Positions 4,771 through 20,160 of a stretch of DNA of 64,000 nucleotides are shown piece by piece (the stretch's first letter is position 1; the number at the start of each line of letters is the position of its first letter). The notes below the pieces were generated by a model, which did no database searches, was not told the DNA's origin, and saw only the letters and a list, made by a program, of their open reading frames with translations. The translations under genes and the position numbers were made by a program. This DNA comes from Alphaproteobacteria bacterium (GTDB lineage Bacteria; Pseudomonadota; Alphaproteobacteria; UBA8366; GCA-2717185): positions 1 through 64,000 of the forward strand of contig JBBDQU010000036.1 of NCBI GenBank assembly GCA_040905865.1, written 5' to 3'.

Positions 4771-5760
4771 TTACACCTGCCCGTCCCGATGCACCGCAAT
4801 AACCGATTTGCCCCGCGCATGCCCCGCTTCCAGGCGGCGGATCGCCTCGGCCGTCTCGGCCAGCGGCCAGATCCGGTCGATGACCGGTGCGAACCGCCCC
4901 GCCTCGGCCAGCCCCATCAGGAACAGCAGGTCTTCCCGGCGCGCCGTCGCGATGAAGCTCTTCAGGTTCTGGCGGGTGAAGGGTGACCGGATCATCGCGC
5001 CGGCCTGCCGATGGACGCCGCCGGTCCAGCGGTCGCCGCCCGACCCGCCGACGATGACCAGCGTACCGTCCGGCGCCAGGGCGCGGCGCAGCTGCGCGAC
5101 CGGCCGGTTGCCGGCGATATCGAGGATCACGTCGTAGCGCTGCGTCCCCTGCGTGAAGTCCTCGCGCGTATAGTCGATCGCATGGTCGGCGCCGAGGCCA
5201 CGGACCATATCCTGTTTCGCCGGGCCGCAGACCCCGGTGACCGCCGCGCCGAATATCTTTGCCAGTTGCACCGCGAAATGGCCGACGCCGCCGGATGCGC
5301 CGGTGATCGCCACGCGCTGCCCCGCCCGGAGCCGCGCATGGTCGCGCAGCCCCTGCAGCGCGGTGCTGGCGGATACGGGGATGGCCGCCGCCTGTTCGAA
5401 GCCGAGGCCCGGCGGCAGGGGGGCGATGCGGTCCGCCCGGGCGACCGCGTATTCCGCCAGACTCCCTGTCGTGCAGGTCCCGAATACCGGATCGCCGACC
5501 CTGAAATCGCCGACCTCGGGACCGATCGCCTCGACCACTCCGGCGATATCCAGACCCGGCACCGGCGTCTTCGGCCGGCGGAGCCCGAAACCCGGCCGCA
5601 CCAGCCACGGCAGCCCGGTCATCCGGCGCCGGACGCCCTGGTCCACCCCGGCGGCGTGCACGCGGATCAGCACCTCGTCCGGTTTCGGTTCGGGCCGTTC
5701 GATATCGCGGAGTTCGAGCACATCCGCCGAGCCGTAACTGTCCTGTGTAACGGCTTTCAT
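4771..5760 (-). CDS. Zinc-type/quinone-reductase-like medium-chain dehydrogenase
   Basis: A 329-aa MDR-superfamily NAD(P)-dependent oxidoreductase. The N-terminal GroES-like domain starts MKAVTQDSYGSADVLEL and contains PGLDIAGVVEAIG. The Rossmann domain carries GASGGVGHFAVQLAK near residue 155. The C-terminal IWPLAETAEAIRRLEAGHARGK block is typical of the quinone oxidoreductase subgroup. No structural four-Cys zinc lobe is seen, so a zinc-independent NADPH:quinone reductase or enone reductase is more likely than an alcohol dehydrogenase. It is monocistronic as far as can be seen and divergent from the terminase-like ORF across an AT-rich spacer. Confidence 0.88.
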   Translation of the reverse strand: MKAVTQDSYGSADVLELRDIERPEPKPDEVLIRVHAAGVDQGVRRRMTGLPWLVRPGFGLRRPKTPVPGLDIAGVVEAIGPEVGDFRVGDPVFGTCTTGSLAEYAVARADRIAPLPPGLGFEQAAAIPVSASTALQGLRDHARLRAGQRVAITGASGGVGHFAVQLAKIFGAAVTGVCGPAKQDMVRGLGADHAIDYTREDFTQGTQRYDVILDIAGNRPVAQLRRALAPDGTLVIVGGSGGDRWTGGVHRQAGAMIRSPFTRQNLKSFIATARREDLLFLMGLAEAGRFAPVIDRIWPLAETAEAIRRLEAGHARGKSVIAVHRDGQV

Positions 5761-10281: not shown

Positions 10282-11043
10282 TCAGGCGATGGCGAGCGTG
10301 TGCCCGCCATCCACCGTGATGACGCTGCCGGTCATGAAGGCCGAACCGTCGCCGGCCAGCAGCAGCAGGACGCCGTCGAGGTCTTCCGGCTGGCCGAGCC
10401 GCCGCTGCGGGATCTTGCGGATCAGCGCCTTGCCGGCATCGGTTTCGAAATAGGCCTGGTTCAGCTCGGTCGCGATGTATCCGGGCGCCAGGGCGTTGAC
10501 CCGGATATCGTGGCGGGCCAGCTCCAGCGCCAGCGCCCTTGTCATCTGCACCACGCCGGCCTTGCTGATGGCGTAGGTCGACAGCTGGTTCGTGACCCCC
10601 TCGCCCAGGATCGAGGCCATGTTGACGATGCTGCCGCCATGGCCCAGGCGGGTCATGTGGCGGGCGACTTCCCGGGCGACGCGCCAGGCGCCGGTCAGGT
10701 TGGTGCCGACGACCAGTTCCCAGTCGGCCTCGTCGATCTCCAGCGCCGGTTTGGCCTGCACCAGCCCCGCATTGTTGACGAGGATACCGATGGCGCCCAG
10801 TTCGACCTCGACCACCCGCACCGCCTCGGTGACGCTGGCCGGGTCGGTCACGTCGAGCGGTACCGGCAGGGCGTGGCCGTCGAACGCGGCGATCTCGGCG
10901 ACGAGGCTTTCCAGCCGGTCGGTGCGCCGGGCGGCGACGGCGACCTTCGCGCCGGCCTTCGCCAGGGTGACGGCGAAATGCCGCCCGATCCCGCTCGACG
11001 CCCCGGTGACGAGGGCAACACGGTCCTGCAGGGGCTGGCTCAT
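10282..11043 (-). CDS. SDR family oxidoreductase (3-hydroxyacyl-CoA/3-oxoacyl type)
   Basis: A 253-aa classical short-chain dehydrogenase with the cofactor motif TGASSGIG at residues 13-20, NNAG near 88, catalytic Tyr/Lys in YAISK near 158-162, and the C-terminal ITVDGGHTLA strand. Position between an acyl-CoA synthetase and an acyl-CoA dehydrogenase suggests oxidation of a 3-hydroxyacyl-CoA or a related alcohol. The start ATG overlaps the upstream synthetase stop codon by 4 bp (ATGA), indicating translational coupling; this rules out the longer open frame to 11136. Confidence 0.9.
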   Translation of the reverse strand: MSQPLQDRVALVTGASSGIGRHFAVTLAKAGAKVAVAARRTDRLESLVAEIAAFDGHALPVPLDVTDPASVTEAVRVVEVELGAIGILVNNAGLVQAKPALEIDEADWELVVGTNLTGAWRVAREVARHMTRLGHGGSIVNMASILGEGVTNQLSTYAISKAGVVQMTRALALELARHDIRVNALAPGYIATELNQAYFETDAGKALIRKIPQRRLGQPEDLDGVLLLLAGDGSAFMTGSVITVDGGHTLAIA

Positions 11044-12677
11044 GACGTTCCTTTCGCGGTTTCGCGCAGGGTGAATTTCTGCACCTTGCCGGTCGATGTC
11101 TTCGGCAGCTCCCCGAATACGACACGGGTCGGGCATTTGAAATGCGCCAGATTGTCCCGGCAGTAGGCGATGACCGCCGCCTCGGTCAGCGCCGTGCCGC
11201 CGGGCTTCAGGGCAACGAAGGCGCAGGGCGTCTCGCCCCAGCGTTCATGGGGTGCGGCGACGACGGCGGCTTCCATGATGCCGGGATGCCGGTACAGCAC
11301 CTCCTCCACCTCCAGGCTGGAGATGTTCTCGCCGCCGGAAATGATGATGTCCTTGGCCCGGTCCTTGATCTCGATATAACCGTCGGGATGCTTCACGGCC
11401 AGGTCGCCCGTATGCAGCCAGCCGCCGCGGAAGGCCGCTTCGGTGGCGACAGGGTTCTTCAGGTAGCCCTTCATCACCGTATTGCCGCGCAGCATCAGCT
11501 CGCCGATGGTCGCGCCGTCCGCCGGCACCGGGGACATGGTGTCGGGGTCGATGATGTCCTGCTCCTCCAGGGTCACGTAGTTCACGCCCTGGCGCGCCAT
11601 CTTCGCCGCCCGTTCGCCCATCGGCAGGCCGTCCCAGTCCGGCTGCCAGGCGCAGACCGTGGACGGGCCGAAGCATTCGGTCATGCCGTACAGATGGGTC
11701 ACCCGGAAGCCCAGGGCCTCCATCTGCTCGATCACCGCGCTGGGCGGCGCGGCGCCGCCGGTCGCGACCTCGACCCTGTGCCCGAAGCGGCGCTTCACCG
11801 CATCCGGCGCATGGATCAGCGCGGTCAGCACCACGGGCGCGCCGCACATATGGGTCACGCCGTGGTCTTCGATCATGGGGAAGATCAGCGCCGGGTCGAC
11901 ATCGCGCAGGCAGACATGGGTGCCGCCCACGGCCGTCACGCCCCAGGTATAGGTCCAGCCGTTGCAGTGGAACATCGGCAGGGTCCACAGGTAGCGCGAC
12001 TCCGCGTTGACCCCGAAGGTCAGCGCGTTGCCGATGGCGTTCAGATAGGCGCCGCGATGATGGAAGACGACTCCCTTCGGATTGCCGGTCGTGCCGGAGG
12101 TGTAGTTCAGCGCGATGGAGTTCCATTCATCCGCCGGCCCTTGCCAGGGGAAGTCCGGATCGCCGCCGGCGATGAAGGTCTCGTAGTCGAGATCGCCGAT
12201 CCTGCCGCCGCCTTTCGCCAGCGGGTCGTCGATATCGACCACCAGCGGCGGGCTGGCCATGCGGCCGAGCGCATCGGTGACGATGGGCGCGTACTGCCGG
12301 TCGGCGATGAAGACCTTCGCGCCGCCATGTTCCAGGATGAAGGCGACGGTCGCCGCGTCGAGCCGTGTATTGATGGTGTTCAGGACGGCGCCCAGCACCG
12401 GAACGCCGAAATGGCATTCCAGCATTTCGGGAATATTGGGCGCCATGACCGCCACGGTATCGCCGGCGCCGACGCCCCGGGCGGCGAGCGCCGATGCCAG
12501 TTGCCGGCTGCGCGTGTAAAACGCGGCGTAGCTTATCCGGCGATCGCCGTGGATTATCGCCGTTTTATGCGGATACACATGGGCGCTGCGCCGCAAAAAG
12601 CTCAACGGCGACAGCGGCGTGTAGTTTGCGGCGCCTTTTTCGAGCCCCTGTTCGAAAGGTGACGGGAAATCGTCCAA
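11040..12677 (-). CDS. Acyl-CoA synthetase (AMP-dependent, long/medium-chain FadD-like)
   Basis: A 545-aa ANL-superfamily ligase. Motifs in order: YTSGTTGNPKGVV (P-loop, near residue 192), YGMTECFG near 330, HTGDLAV near 420 and a C-terminal PKTSTGKVQK holding the catalytic lysine of the adenylation step. It activates a carboxylic acid to its CoA thioester via an acyl-adenylate. First gene of the three-gene operon feeding the SDR and acyl-CoA dehydrogenase. The close relatives are the 'fatty-acyl/aryl' DMSP lyase-linked and FadK-like ligases; the substrate is open. Divergent from the PleD-like gene. Confidence 0.92.
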   Translation of the reverse strand: MDDFPSPFEQGLEKGAANYTPLSPLSFLRRSAHVYPHKTAIIHGDRRISYAAFYTRSRQLASALAARGVGAGDTVAVMAPNIPEMLECHFGVPVLGAVLNTINTRLDAATVAFILEHGGAKVFIADRQYAPIVTDALGRMASPPLVVDIDDPLAKGGGRIGDLDYETFIAGGDPDFPWQGPADEWNSIALNYTSGTTGNPKGVVFHHRGAYLNAIGNALTFGVNAESRYLWTLPMFHCNGWTYTWGVTAVGGTHVCLRDVDPALIFPMIEDHGVTHMCGAPVVLTALIHAPDAVKRRFGHRVEVATGGAAPPSAVIEQMEALGFRVTHLYGMTECFGPSTVCAWQPDWDGLPMGERAAKMARQGVNYVTLEEQDIIDPDTMSPVPADGATIGELMLRGNTVMKGYLKNPVATEAAFRGGWLHTGDLAVKHPDGYIEIKDRAKDIIISGGENISSLEVEEVLYRHPGIMEAAVVAAPHERWGETPCAFVALKPGGTALTEAAVIAYCRDNLAHFKCPTRVVFGELPKTSTGKVQKFTLRETAKGTS

Positions 12678-12795: not shown

Positions 12796-14139
12796 ATGAC
12801 CAGTATGACGAATGTTGTTGTCGCAGGCGGCGATGCGGACGCGGCTATTGCGCGTATCGAGAAGCTGACCCCTGCCGGTTATGCCGGGCTGGCCGTTTCC
12901 AACGGCCTGGATGTGTTTGAATACGTCGTCAACAGACAACCGGATCTGGTCCTGTTCGAGGGCGCGTTTTCCGATGTCGACGCCTTCGAAGTGGTCCGGA
13001 AACTCAAGCGGAGCATCGACACGCTGCATATACCGGCGATCATGCTGAACGCCGATACAACGCCTGAAATGCTCCAGGAGGGTCTCGAATCGGGACTTGG
13101 CGACATGATCGCCAGGGACACGCCGACCGATATCGTCACAGCCCGCCTGCAGCCCTTTGTCCGGCTGGCGACCATGCATGCCGAATGTATCCGCCGGGTC
13201 GCCACGGCGGAGAGTTTTCATATCCCGGTCGATCTGATGGGGATTCATAACGTCGATACGGCGGGTTGCCGGGTGCTGCTGGTCGGCGCCGAGAGTGCCG
13301 GAGTCGACAGGGTCTCGGACAACCTGCGCGATCAGGATATCAGCGTATCGCGGGAATCGAGCCAGTTCGCGGCCGGCGAACGGCTGGCGGCGGAAACCTT
13401 CGATGCGGCGATTATCGTGGCGGAAGCGCCGGCGGAAGTCGAAAAAGCCTATTTCCTTTGCGCCCATATTCGCAACAATTCCCGGTTGTTCAATCTTCCG
13501 GTCCTGCTGGCCTCGAACAGCGGCCTGGTGCCCGCGAGCGACCTGCCCTACCGCCAGGGGGCAAGCATCGCGGTTGCGCTGGACGGTAATCCCGACAATC
13601 TCGCCATATCGTTGAAATTTCTGGTTCTTCGCCAGCGCTTGCGCTGGAATCTCCACGCGCCGTTAACCGCGACGCTCACGGAAAGAACCGCCGATTCGCT
13701 GCGCGGCCTGTATTCGGGCTCCTTCCTTCGCTCCCACATGGCCCGCCAACTGGATTGGACCGGGCGCCGCCGCCGCAGCCTTTCGCTGGCCGTGTTTTCG
13801 ATCCAGAACCTGGACAGCGCCGAAAGCATGTACGGCGCCGGCGCCGGCGGGCAACTGATGCAACAGGCGGCAAACTGGGTTTCCAGTCTTATCCGAATCG
13901 AGGACATGGCGGCCCGCCTGGCGCCGATAGAGATCTGCGCGGTGTTTCCGGATACCGAGGAACAGGATGCCCGACAGGCCGCCGACAGGATCGCGGGTGT
14001 CCTGCACCATTCCGAGTTCACGCTGACCGGCAGCCGGAATGCGACGACCCGCATGTGGACGCAAAGCGGCGTTGCGACGTCGGTTCCGGGCGACTCGGTC
14101 GAAGATCTCGTGGCCCGGGCGCGCGACAACCTGGCGTAA
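12796..14139 (+). CDS. Degenerate PleD-like protein (REC-REC-GGDEF), PopA-like architecture
   Basis: A 447-aa protein that aligns along its whole length with PleD but lacks its key residues. In receiver 1 (residues 6-125) the phospho-acceptor Asp is Glu55 (LVLFEGAFSDVDAF) and the acidic pair is reduced to GGD. In receiver 2 (about 155-275) the acceptor position is Ala (FDAAIIVAEAP). In the GGDEF domain (about 290-447) the active-site motif reads APIE at 376-379, so cyclase activity is not expected. The allosteric I-site RxxD is kept (RIED, 367-370) at the correct spacing. Caulobacter PopA has the same logic: an inactive PleD paralogue that binds c-di-GMP through its I-site. Role here is inferred as a c-di-GMP receptor or scaffold. 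A second possible start is Met4. Confidence 0.75.
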   Translation: MTSMTNVVVAGGDADAAIARIEKLTPAGYAGLAVSNGLDVFEYVVNRQPDLVLFEGAFSDVDAFEVVRKLKRSIDTLHIPAIMLNADTTPEMLQEGLESGLGDMIARDTPTDIVTARLQPFVRLATMHAECIRRVATAESFHIPVDLMGIHNVDTAGCRVLLVGAESAGVDRVSDNLRDQDISVSRESSQFAAGERLAAETFDAAIIVAEAPAEVEKAYFLCAHIRNNSRLFNLPVLLASNSGLVPASDLPYRQGASIAVALDGNPDNLAISLKFLVLRQRLRWNLHAPLTATLTERTADSLRGLYSGSFLRSHMARQLDWTGRRRRSLSLAVFSIQNLDSAESMYGAGAGGQLMQQAANWVSSLIRIEDMAARLAPIEICAVFPDTEEQDARQAADRIAGVLHHSEFTLTGSRNATTRMWTQSGVATSVPGDSVEDLVARARDNLA

Positions 14140-14156
14140 AGCCGCCACCGTATCGG

Positions 14157-17100
14157 CTATTGCGCTGCGACGATTGCCAGTTCCTGCAGGATCTTGCGGA
14201 CTCCGGAAATCCGGGCCTTGGATAGTTGCCAGTCGGCGCCGCAAACGAGTTTGTGGTCCGGCCGGAGCTTGATTCTGGACGCGTGTTTCTGCAGATAGCC
14301 GATAAGGCCGGCCGGATTGGCAAATTCATTGTTGCGGAAGGACAGCGCCATACCCTTGGGGCCGGCATCCAGCTTATCGACGCCAGCCTGGCGGCAGAGC
14401 TGTTTTATCGTCATGATTTCCAGCAGGTTTTCGACTTCGACGGGCAGCGGTCCGAAACGGTCGACCAGTTCCGCGGCGAAGCGGTCGATTTCCGCCGGGT
14501 CGGCGCTAGTGGAAAGCCGTCGGTAAAGGCCCATCCGGACCGTCAGGTCCTCGACGTAGTTTTCCGGAATGAGCACCGATGTTCCGACGGATATCTGGGG
14601 GACCCACTCGCTTTCCGCCGCGTTGTCGCCACCCTTGGCCGAGACCACGGCCTCTTCCAGCATCCGCTGATAGAGCTCGATGCCGACCTCGCGGACATGA
14701 CCGGACTGCTCCTCGCCCAGCAGATTGCCCGACCCCCTGATATCCAGGTCATGACTGGCCAGGGTGAACCCGGCGCCGAGTGTATCCAGGGTCTGCATGA
14801 CCTCCAGCCGTCGCGTCGCGGCCGGCGTCAGCCGTCGGCCCGGCGGAATCGTGAAATAGCAATAGGCGCGGATCTTCGACCGGCCGACGCGTCCCCGCAA
14901 CTGATACAACTGCGCCAGGCCGAACATGTCGGCCCGGTGCACGATCATCGTATTGACCCTGGGCAGGTCCAGCCCGGATTCGATGATCTGCGTGCAAAGC
15001 AGTATGTCAAACTCGCCGTCGGCAAAGGCCGTCATGACATCCTCGAGTTCCCCCGGCGACATCTGCCCGTGGGCGATCGTCACGCGTGCTTCCGGGACGA
15101 TATTTTGCAGGGCCAGCCGCAACTGGCGAATATCGGACAGCCTGGGACAGACATAGAAGGTCTGACCGCCACGATGCCGTTCGCGCATGATCGCCTCGCG
15201 CAGCACCACGGGATCATGCGGCATGGTGAAGGTTCTGACCGCGAGCCTGTCCACCGGGGGCGTGGCGATTATGCTGAGTTCGCGCACCCCTGTCAGCGCC
15301 ATCTGCAGCGTCCGCGGGATCGGCGTCGCCGTGAGGGTCAGCACATGGACATTTGATTTGAGCTGTTTCAGGCGTTCCTTCTGGGTCACGCCAAAGTGCT
15401 GTTCCTCATCGACGACGATCAGGCCAAGCCGGTCGAAGCGAACCGATTTGCTCAACAGCGCATGTGTCCCGACGACGATATCCAACGTGCCGTCCGCCAG
15501 CCCTTCGCGGGTCCGGTCGGCATCCTTGCCGGTAACGAAGCGCGACAATTGCCCGATCCGAACCGGCAGACCCGCGAAACGGTCCTTGAAGTTCTGGAAA
15601 TGCTGGCGGGACAGCAGGGTTGTCGGCACCACAACCGCGACCTGATAGCCGCTCATGGTCGCGGCAAAGGCGGCGCGCAGGGCGATTTCCGTCTTGCCGA
15701 AGCCGACATCGCCACAGATCAACCGATCCATCGGACGGCCGGATTCCAGATCCGACAGCACGTCGTTTACGGCGCTCAATTGATCGTCGGTTTCCGCATA
15801 GGGGAAACGGGCGCAGAATTCATCGAAACTGGCCTGCTCCGCCTGGATCGTCTCGCCTTTGGAAAGCGTTCGTCCGGCGGCTATGGCGAGCAGTTCATGG
15901 GCGACCTCGCGGATATGCTCCTTGACCCGTGCCTTGCGGGCCTGCCAGGCCTGTCCGCCCAGCCGGTCGAGCTGGATATTCGATTCCTCCGACCCGTAAC
16001 GGGCGAGGACTTCGATGTTTTCGACCGGAACATACAGTTTGGCCCCGCCGGCGTAGAGGACGCGCAGGCAATCATGGGATGCGGCGCCGGCCCTGACCGT
16101 TTCCAGCCCGTCGAAGCGACCGACGCCGTGATCGACATGAACGATGTAATCTCCTTCCGAAAGGCTCGATACTTCGGTCAGAAATTCCTCGCCGCGCCGC
16201 CGGCGGCGGGACGGGCGTGACAGGCGTTCGCCGAGGATATCCTGTTCGGTAATGACGACGACATCGCCGGTACTGAATCCCTTTTCGAGGTTCAGCGCCG
16301 CAAGCGAGATGGACCCCGAAGGCTGCGCCAGCAGTTCGGCCCAATCGTCAATGGTTCCGGCGGTTTCGATACCGTGCTGCTCCAGCAGCGTATTCAACCG
16401 GTCGCGTGTGCCGGCACTATGGCCCGAAATCAGTATCCGGCGCTTCTTCTCGCTCTCCAGTCGGTCGCGGACGGCATCGAACAGTCCGGCGGCATTTGCC
16501 TGTCGCGCCTGGGTGAAATCGACGATCTGGCGGGCGCCGGCATCAACGGTTGCCCCGGACTGTTCGGGCGCGGTGAATGGCGAGAATACGGCCACGATCC
16601 GTTCATTCAGGGTTTTCGACCAGCATGCCTGATCCATGAACATGCTGTCCGGCGGGACGGGCTTGTAGATCGCCGCGCCCTCCCCCGCCGCCTTTCCCCT
16701 GCCGCCGGCAGGCAGCATCGAACGGCGCGCGTCGTAGTAATCCGCGATCATCTCCATCCGTTCGGAAACGACGCTTTCCACCTCGTGATCCAGAACCACA
16801 ACGGCGTCTGGCAGGTATTCGAACACCGTCTCCAGCCTGTCATGAAACAGCGGAAGCCAGTGTTCCATGCCGATATAGCGCCGTCCGGCGGTGATCGACT
16901 CGTAGAGCGGGTCCTCGCTGGAAGCGATGCCGAAAATGCTCCTGTATCCGGACCGGAAGCGCTGGATGCTGTCTTCATCCAGCAGCACTTCGCTGACGGG
17001 GCGCAGGCGGATGCCGTCCCGAACGTCTTCCGTGCGTTGCGTCATGGCGTCGAAGGCCCGGACGCCTTCCAGTTCGTCGCCAAAAAAATCCAGACGCAGC

Positions 17101-17642
17101 GGCGACGGCGCGCCGGGCGGATAAACGTCGACGATCCCGCCGCGAATGGCGTATTCCCCGGTTTCCCGGACGGTCGCGGCGCGGATATAGCCGTTCCGGG
17201 TAAAGTACTGCGTCAGTTCGCCGAGATCCAGGCGGTCGCCGGTATTCGCGGTCAGCGTCGATTCCCGGAATACGGCCCGTGCCGGTACGCTTTGAACGGC
17301 GGCGCTGACCGTCGTGAGCAGGATGAACGGCTGATTTATGTCGTCGCTTGCCATTCGGGTCAGCGCGTCCAGCCGCCGCGCGACGACGTCGCCGTTCGGC
17401 GAGACACGGTCATATGGCAGGCAGTCCCAGGCAGGCAGCACGAGAACATCGAGCGCCGGCGCGACAAAAGCCAGCATGTCGGACATAAGCGCCATGCCCG
17501 CATCGTCGCGCGCAATATGAATCACCTGCCGCGCGGATGCTTCACAGGCGAGTTCCGCCAGGGCGACAGCCGTGTAGCCTTCGGGCGCCCCGGCTATCGT
17601 GGTCCGACCGACCGAAAGTTTATGTTTCGAGATAACGTTCAA
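14157..17642 (-). CDS. mfd: Transcription-repair coupling factor Mfd
   Basis: A 1161-aa protein of normal Mfd length. It holds the UvrB-like N-terminal region, the RNA polymerase-interacting (CarD-like) domain with EGDYIVHVDHGVGRFDGLE near residue 495, the Walker A segment ICGDVGFGKTEIALR near 640, the DEEQ box in VVDEEQHFGV, RecG-like translocase motifs (LTATPIPRTLQMAL) and the C-terminal D7 domain. Mfd removes stalled RNA polymerase from DNA lesions and recruits UvrA. Its TTG start lies inside the sdhE stop (TTGA, 4-bp overlap), so the two are translationally coupled. Confidence 0.97.
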   Translation of the reverse strand: MNVISKHKLSVGRTTIAGAPEGYTAVALAELACEASARQVIHIARDDAGMALMSDMLAFVAPALDVLVLPAWDCLPYDRVSPNGDVVARRLDALTRMASDDINQPFILLTTVSAAVQSVPARAVFRESTLTANTGDRLDLGELTQYFTRNGYIRAATVRETGEYAIRGGIVDVYPPGAPSPLRLDFFGDELEGVRAFDAMTQRTEDVRDGIRLRPVSEVLLDEDSIQRFRSGYRSIFGIASSEDPLYESITAGRRYIGMEHWLPLFHDRLETVFEYLPDAVVVLDHEVESVVSERMEMIADYYDARRSMLPAGGRGKAAGEGAAIYKPVPPDSMFMDQACWSKTLNERIVAVFSPFTAPEQSGATVDAGARQIVDFTQARQANAAGLFDAVRDRLESEKKRRILISGHSAGTRDRLNTLLEQHGIETAGTIDDWAELLAQPSGSISLAALNLEKGFSTGDVVVITEQDILGERLSRPSRRRRRGEEFLTEVSSLSEGDYIVHVDHGVGRFDGLETVRAGAASHDCLRVLYAGGAKLYVPVENIEVLARYGSEESNIQLDRLGGQAWQARKARVKEHIREVAHELLAIAAGRTLSKGETIQAEQASFDEFCARFPYAETDDQLSAVNDVLSDLESGRPMDRLICGDVGFGKTEIALRAAFAATMSGYQVAVVVPTTLLSRQHFQNFKDRFAGLPVRIGQLSRFVTGKDADRTREGLADGTLDIVVGTHALLSKSVRFDRLGLIVVDEEQHFGVTQKERLKQLKSNVHVLTLTATPIPRTLQMALTGVRELSIIATPPVDRLAVRTFTMPHDPVVLREAIMRERHRGGQTFYVCPRLSDIRQLRLALQNIVPEARVTIAHGQMSPGELEDVMTAFADGEFDILLCTQIIESGLDLPRVNTMIVHRADMFGLAQLYQLRGRVGRSKIRAYCYFTIPPGRRLTPAATRRLEVMQTLDTLGAGFTLASHDLDIRGSGNLLGEEQSGHVREVGIELYQRMLEEAVVSAKGGDNAAESEWVPQISVGTSVLIPENYVEDLTVRMGLYRRLSTSADPAEIDRFAAELVDRFGPLPVEVENLLEIMTIKQLCRQAGVDKLDAGPKGMALSFRNNEFANPAGLIGYLQKHASRIKLRPDHKLVCGADWQLSKARISGVRKILQELAIVAAQ

Positions 17643-17899
17643 TAGTTGCTTATGCTTAGAGTAAATTTTTTAAGAGAATTCATGAGGTCATGCTGCAGGG
17701 AACCAGGCAGGATACCGTCCTTTGCAATCCACTCATATATAACCGGGTCGTCATAGGTCAAAATTTCTTCCAGCTGGGCAAGTTCCCGATCTGAAAAGTC
17801 GTTGATACGCTGTTCGGCAAACTTGCCCAGCAGCATGTCCATTTCGCGCATACCGCGATGCCAGCATCGGAACAGAAGCTTCTTGCGGCGTGTATCCAT
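17639..17899 (-). CDS. sdhE: Succinate dehydrogenase assembly factor SdhE (FAD assembly factor, DUF339)
   Basis: An 86-aa protein with the family signature RGMREMD (the RGxxE-type motif that contacts SdhA) near residues 16-22, followed by the LxxFL-like helical bundle and DDPVIYEWI. SdhE promotes covalent flavinylation of SdhA. Start taken at 17899 (MDTRRKKLLFRCWHRG); the open frame to 17965 adds 22 residues without family similarity. It is the first gene of an sdhE-mfd unit and is divergent from recG, an order common in Alphaproteobacteria. Confidence 0.92.
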   Translation of the reverse strand: MDTRRKKLLFRCWHRGMREMDMLLGKFAEQRINDFSDRELAQLEEILTYDDPVIYEWIAKDGILPGSLQHDLMNSLKKFTLSISNY

Positions 17900-18018
17900 T
17901 GAATCCGTATGCCCGGTGGGTAACGCATCGTTTCTTTCAAGGGTCGGGTATAGACTGCCGCGCAATCCCGGTAAATCAGAATGTCCGACCGCTGGCTACC
18001 GGCACGAGCACGTTTGTA

Positions 18019-18047
18019 TTATATGGGGCGTTACCAGCGTCCGTCAT
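18019..18047 (-). promoter_or_regulatory. Candidate sigma-70-type promoter for sdhE-mfd
   Basis: On the minus strand an ATGACG element (18047-18042) and a perfect TATAAT (18024-18019) are separated by 17 bp. It would start transcription about 110 bp upstream of sdhE. The -35 box overlaps sequence just before the chosen recG start at 18049. Confidence 0.4.
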
Positions 18048-18048
18048 C

Positions 18049-20160
18049 GTGACACCCCTTCAGGTCCCGGAGGACGATTTGCGTCCGGAAATTCTGTTCG
18101 ATCTTTTTTCGCCGGTGACCAGCCTGCCCGGTATCGGTCCGCGCAGTGCACGGCTGGTTGAACGCCTCGCCGGACCGAATGCGGTTGACCTGCTCTGGCT
18201 GCTGCCCCGCGAGATTGTCGACCGGCGTTACAACCCAAAAATCGCAGCGGCCGTCCCGGGCCGGATCGCGACGCTGACAGTCCGCGTGGACTCCCATTTC
18301 GCGCCGCCCGTCAAAAGGCAGCCCTATCGCGTGATTTGTTCCGACGATAGCGGATATATCACCCTGATCTTTTTTCATGCGCGCGCGGACTACCTGACAA
18401 GGCAGTTGCCGGAAGGAGAGACACGGGTCATCAGCGGCCGGGTCGAGGCGTTCCGCGGTGAGATCCAGATGACCCATCCGGACCATATTACGGCGCCGGA
18501 GGATGTAGAGGCGATCATGCGCGTCGAACCGGTCTATCCCATGACGGCTAATCTGGCGCCGAAGATCCTGTCGCGGGCGATTGCCGCCATCCTTGAAAAG
18601 CTGCCTGATTTACCCGAATGGCTCGATCCCGCCTATCTGGACAGGCGGCAATGGCCCGGATGGCGCGACGCGGTGACCACGGTCCATCATCCGACGGACA
18701 GCGCGTCGCTTTCGCCGCAGACACCGGAGCGGATGCGCCTTGCCTATGACGAGTTGCTTGCCAACCAACTGGCGCTGTCGGTCATGCGGAATCGGCTGAA
18801 GCGGTCAGTTGGCCGTGCGCTGAAAGGCGACGGCGGGCTGAAGCGGAAAGTCTACCGGTCTCTCCCGTTCAAATTGACGGGCAGCCAGATTGCAGCCCTG
18901 AAAGAGATCGACGCCGACATGGCGGCGCCCGGCGCGATGCTGCGCCTGCTGCAGGGCGATGTCGGCAGCGGCAAGACGGTAGTGGCGCTTTTCGCGATGC
19001 TGAACGCTGTCGAATGCGGTGGCCAGGCAGCCATGATGGCGCCAACGGAAATCCTGGCCCGACAGCATTTCGAGACGCTGCGGGCAATGCTGGAGCCAGC
19101 CGGAGTCAGCGTTGCCCTCCTCACAGGACGCCATAAAGGCGCCGCGCGGCAGCGCATTCTGGATGCGGTCGCCACGGGGGAAACCCGGGTCATCGTCGGC
19201 ACGCATGCGCTGTTCCAGGCGGATGTCGCGTTCAAGTCGCTGATGCTGGCGGTCATCGATGAGCAGCACCGGTTTGGCGTCCATCAGCGGCTAACCCTGG
19301 CGGACAAGGGGCGTGGCATCGACGTGCTGGTCATGACCGCGACACCGATCCCCCGGACGCTGACATTGACGGTTTATGGCGACATGGATGTATCGCGGTT
19401 GACAGAAAAGCCCGCCGGACGAAAACCCGTGGACACAAGGACCGTTCCGCTGTCGCGATTGCCGGAAACGATCGATGGCATCGCAAGAGCCCTGGAGCAC
19501 GGCGCCAAGGTCTATTGGGTCTGTCCGCTCGTGGACGAAAGCGAGGTGCTCGACCTCGCGGCGGCGGAGGAACGCTATACGGAATTCCGGACAAGGTTCG
19601 GCGATATTGTTGCGCTGGTGCATGGCCGGATGAAACCCGTGGAAAAGGATGCGGCGATTGCCCGTTTCGTTGAAGGCGATGCGCGTATCCTGGTTGCCAC
19701 GACAGTGATCGAAGTCGGCGTCGATGTTCCCGACGCGACCGTCATGGTCATCGAGCATGCCGAGCGTTTCGGTCTGGCGCAATTGCACCAGCTGCGCGGC
19801 AGAATTGGCCGTGGCGAGAAAGCATCGAATTGCCTGCTGCTCTACGGTCAGCCGGTCACGGAAACCGCGCGGTCGCGGCTGAAGATATTGCGGGAAACCG
19901 AGGATGGTTTCCGGATTGCGGAGGAGGACCTGCGGCTGCGGGGCGCCGGCGAAATGCTGGGAACGCGGCAAAGCGGCCTTCCGGAATTCAGGCTTGCGGA
20001 TATTGCCCTGCATGGCGATCTTCTGGCTGCGGCCCGAGATGACGCGAACCTGATTCTGAACAGGGACCCGGATCTGAAAAGCGAACGCGGCAAGGCGCTT
20101 CGAAACCTGCTTTATCTGTTCGGGCGGGACGCGGCTATCGTCAATCTTCGATCTGGTTGA
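18049..20160 (+). CDS. recG: ATP-dependent DNA helicase RecG
   Basis: A 703-aa helicase with the N-terminal wedge/OB domain (LPGIGPRSARLVERL helix-hairpin-helix near residue 22), Walker A LLQGDVGSGKTVVAL near 302, DEQH box VIDEQHRFGVHQR, motif III MTATPIPRTL, and the C-terminal QLHQLRGRIGRG motif VI. RecG remodels stalled forks and branched DNA. The frame is open back to an ATG at 17890, but the GTG at 18049 gives the standard length and begins just before the conserved N-terminus; the 53-residue extension would run over the sdhE promoter. The 3' end overlaps the DUF502 gene by 20 bp (convergent). Confidence 0.95.
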   Translation: MTPLQVPEDDLRPEILFDLFSPVTSLPGIGPRSARLVERLAGPNAVDLLWLLPREIVDRRYNPKIAAAVPGRIATLTVRVDSHFAPPVKRQPYRVICSDDSGYITLIFFHARADYLTRQLPEGETRVISGRVEAFRGEIQMTHPDHITAPEDVEAIMRVEPVYPMTANLAPKILSRAIAAILEKLPDLPEWLDPAYLDRRQWPGWRDAVTTVHHPTDSASLSPQTPERMRLAYDELLANQLALSVMRNRLKRSVGRALKGDGGLKRKVYRSLPFKLTGSQIAALKEIDADMAAPGAMLRLLQGDVGSGKTVVALFAMLNAVECGGQAAMMAPTEILARQHFETLRAMLEPAGVSVALLTGRHKGAARQRILDAVATGETRVIVGTHALFQADVAFKSLMLAVIDEQHRFGVHQRLTLADKGRGIDVLVMTATPIPRTLTLTVYGDMDVSRLTEKPAGRKPVDTRTVPLSRLPETIDGIARALEHGAKVYWVCPLVDESEVLDLAAAEERYTEFRTRFGDIVALVHGRMKPVEKDAAIARFVEGDARILVATTVIEVGVDVPDATVMVIEHAERFGLAQLHQLRGRIGRGEKASNCLLLYGQPVTETARSRLKILRETEDGFRIAEEDLRLRGAGEMLGTRQSGLPEFRLADIALHGDLLAAARDDANLILNRDPDLKSERGKALRNLLYLFGRDAAIVNLRSG

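Follow-up and report, generated by a model that had tools for sequence, protein, structure and literature searches.

What does a PleD-like protein do once its catalytic site has decayed, and is it still a receptor for c-di-GMP? The question is raised by a gene in the window (i.e. the whole stretch of DNA analysed, 64,000 nucleotides of contig JBBDQU010000036.1 in the alphaproteobacterial assembly GCA_040905865.1), whose open reading frame, with an ATG start and ends confirmed at exactly 12796 and 14139 on the forward strand, encodes 447 residues. The sequence-only reading had compared it with Caulobacter PopA, described as a pleD paralogue with an RxxD motif and a degenerate A-site, for which c-di-GMP binding is listed at about 2 µM (PMC12564702). 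The gene and its parts are the following.

12796..14139, forward strand: popA-orthologous gene, 447-residue REC-REC-degenerate GGDEF protein (ORF, Pfam, structure prediction)
12805..13176, forward strand: REC1 pseudo-receiver, residues 4-127 (alignment, model)
13267..13671, forward strand: REC2 pseudo-receiver and linker helix, residues 158-292 (model, structure comparison)
13471..13500, forward strand: family signature RNNSRLFNLP in a REC2 loop, residues 226-235 (family conservation)
13684..14133, forward strand: degenerate GGDEF domain, residues 297-446 (Pfam, alignment, model)

The REC-REC-GGDEF architecture emerges from three sources. Pfam detects GGDEF (E 5e-14) and, below threshold, Response_reg (6.5e-6), the best PDB sequence matches are Caulobacter PleD structures (residues 12-444), and an AlphaFold2 model (mean pLDDT 93.6, pTM 0.90) has PleD 2wb4 as its best structural match (433 residues, Z 27.8). 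The domain arrangement of the model differs from that of 2wb4 (rmsd 17.9), with single GGDEF domains agreeing to 1.4-2.3 Å, and the fold is confidently predicted to be PleD-like. Compared with PleD of Caulobacter and its paralogue in the window genome, the protein has the same fold, domain order and I-site spacing, but lacks the phospho-acceptor pocket and the catalytic residues, and the NCBIfam PleD model, which spans residues 23-446, gives it 146 bits where the cut-off is 474.

In the GGDEF domain, the PleD alignment places three elements.

13894..13905, forward strand: I-site RIED, R367 and D370 corresponding to PleD R359 and D362 (alignment)
13921..13935, forward strand: APIEI replacing GGEEF, residues 376-380 (alignment)
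13987..13989, forward strand: R398, corresponding to PleD R390, the secondary I-site arginine (alignment)

The proposal that RIED (367-370) sits at the exact PleD spacing and that GGEEF has been lost is borne out by this alignment, and the protein combines the two marks of PopA, a degenerate catalytic A-site and an RxxD with its secondary arginine (R367, D370, R398). By itself, an RxxD motif in one protein is weak evidence, since it occurs in six of the nine catalytic-looking, alignable GGDEF domains of the same genome. Conservation among relatives, on which the sequence-only reading had staked its case beforehand, is more telling. Named genomes, predominantly of Rhodospirillales (Magnetospirillum, Paramagnetospirillum, Telmatospirillum, Terasakiella, Marivibrio, Aestuariispira, Curvivirga, Oleispirillum and MAGs), contributed 70 orthologous loci, and more came from further relatives; 84 distinct sequences were compared, and the scan was based on a 9-row alignment, a 25-row alignment having no sufficiently conserved stretch. 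RxxD is kept across this set, with position 367 being R in 82/84 and K in the remaining two, position 369 E in 82/84 and position 370 D in all 84, while R398 is R in 83/83 aligned orthologues. The PleD residues D327, D329, K332, N335 and E370 survive in 0-2% of the same 84 sequences, and D336 and D344 in about 10%. PleD has 40 GGDEF columns with an invariance of at least 95%; just six of them still reach this level in the PopA-type family, and all three I-site residues are among them (hypergeometric P = 0.002). The I-site is held by selection on an enzyme with a dead active site. The REC-side I-site arginines of PleD, R148 and R178, are not kept, though they vary in PleDs too.

These figures bear directly on the idea that the gene is a decaying copy of pleD that binds no ligand, in which RxxD would survive only through ancestry or the constraints of the fold. 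In accord with it are the frequency of RxxD in the genome and the state of popA in two relatives, since a split into two frames in one (G020; L066 9865-11210) and an in-frame TGA at codon 11 in another (G003; L002 1501-1700), each of which may be decay or sequencing error, suggest that popA may be dispensable in places. However, R367, D370 and R398 are almost invariant in 84 divergent orthologues that have lost most other PleD-invariant positions, three of the nine local catalytic-looking GGDEF domains do without RxxD, so that the fold does not need it, and divergence at third codon positions of popA exceeds that at first and second positions two- to threefold, which places the gene under purifying selection. 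An inert relic is thus an unlikely explanation. Separately, PopA-type genes with GGDEF or near-GGDEF motifs were found in other families (L227, L228, L229, L235, L238 and L241); they keep RxED and miss other catalytic residues (e.g. K332), i.e. a graded decay of the active site.

The receiver domains had prompted a different suggestion, namely that the glutamate at the acceptor position of REC1 mimics phospho-aspartate and holds the protein in a constitutively active state.

12958..12960, forward strand: E55, aligned to the phospho-acceptor D53 of PleD and variable across the family (alignment)

E55 does stand in the acceptor column, and it occurs in the family f1 orthologues examined, but across the 84 orthologues this column is G in 38, D in 12, S in 8 and E in only 7, and on this conservation test the phosphomimic was rejected. 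Other residues of the phosphate pocket have been lost as well, the Mg2+-binding acidic pair being G11/G12, Thr83 replaced by N85 and Lys105 by R107. With the acidic pair, Thr and Lys gone, a mimic would have no switch to drive, which makes a locked-on protein very improbable; REC1 is a pseudo-receiver rather than a locked-on receiver. REC2 likewise has no Asp acceptor, so that the reported loss of both phosphorylation sites is correct as a description of the two domains, but in REC2 it is no new loss, the corresponding column in PleD proteins being N in 26 and S in 15 of 42. The REC1 phospho-acceptor Asp and GGEEF active site that characterize PleD are accordingly both absent, with E55 and APIEI in their place.

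Is the likeness to PopA one of design only, or of descent? Caulobacter-like genomes were located with PleD as bait, and each of the nine examined contains exactly one further REC-REC-GGDEF gene matching the window protein. In the Caulobacter-like genus g260 (four genomes), this second protein numbers D55 and R357, which we take to be the published PopA residue numbers, and on this basis the gene was assigned as PopA. In maximum-likelihood trees (quick searches, unrooted), the PopA-type proteins are cleanly separated from PleD proteins (SH-aLRT 100), and the window protein falls with PopA of Caulobacterales, outside every PleD. The AU test rejected an independent origin of PopA from caulobacteral PleD (p-AU 5e-71, 66 log units). 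Derived states common to Caulobacterales PopA and the Rhodospirillales family, and absent from most PleDs, include RxED, Q357 and RNxRLxxxP; the RNNSRLFNLP loop of the window protein corresponds to RNTRLYHIP in Caulobacterales PopA, and this REC2 loop is a candidate partner-binding surface.

The gene neighbourhood provides a second line of evidence.

10282..11136, reverse strand: SDR-family gene; an SDR gene adjoins popA in several other orders too
11040..12677, reverse strand: AMP-dependent ligase gene; in families f1 and f3 it is the divergent neighbour of popA
14157..17642, reverse strand: mfd, convergent neighbour, conserved beside popA in Rhodospirillales and Caulobacterales
17639..17965, reverse strand: sdhE-like gene, part of the conserved neighbourhood
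17890..20160, forward strand: recG, part of the conserved neighbourhood

The order popA-(DsbA-like)-mfd-sdhE-recG is found as a group in Rhodospirillales and, wholly or partly, at 8/9 Caulobacterales loci, with mfd-sdhE-recG lying by popA both in the window and at the Caulobacterales loci L169, L174, L175 and L177. In a class-wide sample, PopA-type genes of many further families adjoin DsbA-like, mfd or SDR genes, but the PleD-type loci read in that sample do not. Phylogeny and common neighbourhood together make the window protein an orthologue of PopA, not only an analogue, so that the PopA-like, non-catalytic design noticed at first holds in a stronger sense than had been claimed. Like the window protein, PopA of Caulobacter crescentus/vibrioides (CC1842, CCNA_01918) is REC-REC-GGDEF with a dead active site, RxED and R390, and it shares with the window family a clade apart from PleD, the DsbA-like/mfd/sdhE/recG neighbourhood and the RNxRL loop. 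The two are only 22-27% identical over aligned parts, and they differ in REC1 (Asp55 in CC1842, Glu in the window protein) and in the GGDEF remnant (APIEI in the window protein). Of this neighbourhood the window retains popA-mfd-sdhE-recG; the DsbA-like gene, usual between popA and mfd, has been lost at 14139-14157 and is missing in G003 too, leaving a 17-base convergent gap. Within the window, no CtrA box (TTAA-N7-TTAA) was found, and promoter and terminator scans performed no better than shuffles.

If the protein is PopA, does it work as PopA does? In Caulobacter, PopA acts through RcdA (PMC8973945), and regulated proteolysis had been proposed as the role here. The most complete version of this scenario is a full Caulobacter-type adaptor which, with c-di-GMP, would bind both RcdA and CtrA and hand CtrA over to ClpXP primed by CpdR. 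Several of the proteins that the sequence-only reading had named for a search are indeed in the genome, i.e. a true PleD (L031, G000:C72), a CtrA at 73% in a chemotaxis-flagellar cluster (G000:C74) and a CpdR-like protein at 52%. Moreover, the CtrA ends in RAPAA, resembling a ClpXP degron, and the closest relatives (G001-G003) have RcdA. Searches of the window genome for RcdA itself, however, with PF07323 and with an order-specific RcdA profile, found none. In genomes of the same genus, rcdA lies between hsp20 and rpmE; here these flanks are intact (G000:C5, in one assembly) and enclose only a 3' remnant, the last ~37 codons (134-170), without a start (L218, G000:C5:184001-198000, 4955-5167). 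An assembly gap as the cause of the missing gene was rejected, the flanks being contiguous, without N and with the remnant present. In this one assembly, rcdA is deleted, and RcdA-dependent delivery of CtrA to ClpXP therefore cannot run here.

This loss has a parallel in the related family f3, in which popA is present in 14/15 genomes (split in one) and RcdA was detected, with both PF07323 and the order-specific profile, in 0/15; nor was CpdR found in f3 genomes at a single cut-off of E 1e-25, a result that carries no weight in what follows. Both popA and RcdA occur in 7/7 f4 genomes and in Magnetospirillum-type, Telmatospirillum and Terasakiella genomes. Earlier work reported that CpdR-RcdA is nearly lost from Magnetospirillum and Rhodospirillum and noted an rcdA in Magnetospirillum (PMC2877005). 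Since Caulobacter PopA works through RcdA, while popA is found in genomes without detectable RcdA, the RcdA route cannot be the general function of the family, and a full adaptor of the Caulobacter type is improbable for the window protein. As for the C-terminus of CtrA, an Ala-Ala end was read in the window genome and one f1 relative, and in none of the eight CtrAs read from the RcdA-free f3 lineage (L209, L251-L261).

The reading that we favour, and consider probable, is that the gene encodes a PopA-orthologous PleD paralogue, devoid of cyclase activity and of phosphorylation control, which serves as a c-di-GMP receptor or adaptor. In the proposed mechanism, the cell's other cyclases would supply the c-di-GMP (they are PleD and at least eight more GGDEF proteins, the genome encoding eight other catalytic-looking domains besides PleD), and this would bind at the I-site, with R367 and D370 contributed by one GGDEF domain and R398 by another. 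The I-site residues of two GGDEF domains would hold an intercalated c-di-GMP dimer, which would cross-link two protomers at their C-terminal domains, and the cross-linked dimer may then offer a partner the conserved surfaces of REC2 and GGDEF. Its output would be adaptor-like, such as recruitment or positioning of a client, rather than enzymatic. Against a receptor are the K that replaces R367 in two orthologues (L060 and L022), the interrupted popA of G020 and G003, and the missing counterparts of PleD R148 and R178.

Membership of the PopA type is known in kind from earlier papers. PopA has been called restricted to Caulobacter and related species (PMC8973945), a Hyphomonas popA, 25% identical, is listed in PMC7200025, and Fig. 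5a of a 2023 paper (PMC10333796) shows alphaproteobacterial PopA homologues that branch with PopA and have an I-site but no GGDEF motif, all of which is also true of the window protein. The accessible text on these PopA-like receptors gives no organism names, neighbourhood, residue statistics or comparison with RcdA. What appears to be new is the common neighbourhood, the residue statistics and the retention of popA after loss of rcdA. popA is a syntenic orthologue across Rhodospirillales and, on less full testing, in many other alphaproteobacterial families, and its presence in lineages without detectable RcdA sets PopA's c-di-GMP sensing apart from the textbook role in proteolysis. A broader scenario, which we put forward tentatively, is that PopA is an ancient, class-wide alphaproteobacterial c-di-GMP receptor, descended from one PleD paralogue beside mfd, whose active site decayed variously by lineage while the I-site was held, and whose original job, without RcdA or CtrA proteolysis, might survive here and in RcdA-free relatives. 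Cultured organisms in which such an older function could be tested directly include Paramagnetospirillum, Terasakiella, Marivibrio and Aestuariispira. Finally, the two orthologues L060 and L022 have KASD instead of RxED at the I-site, and are natural variants for binding tests.
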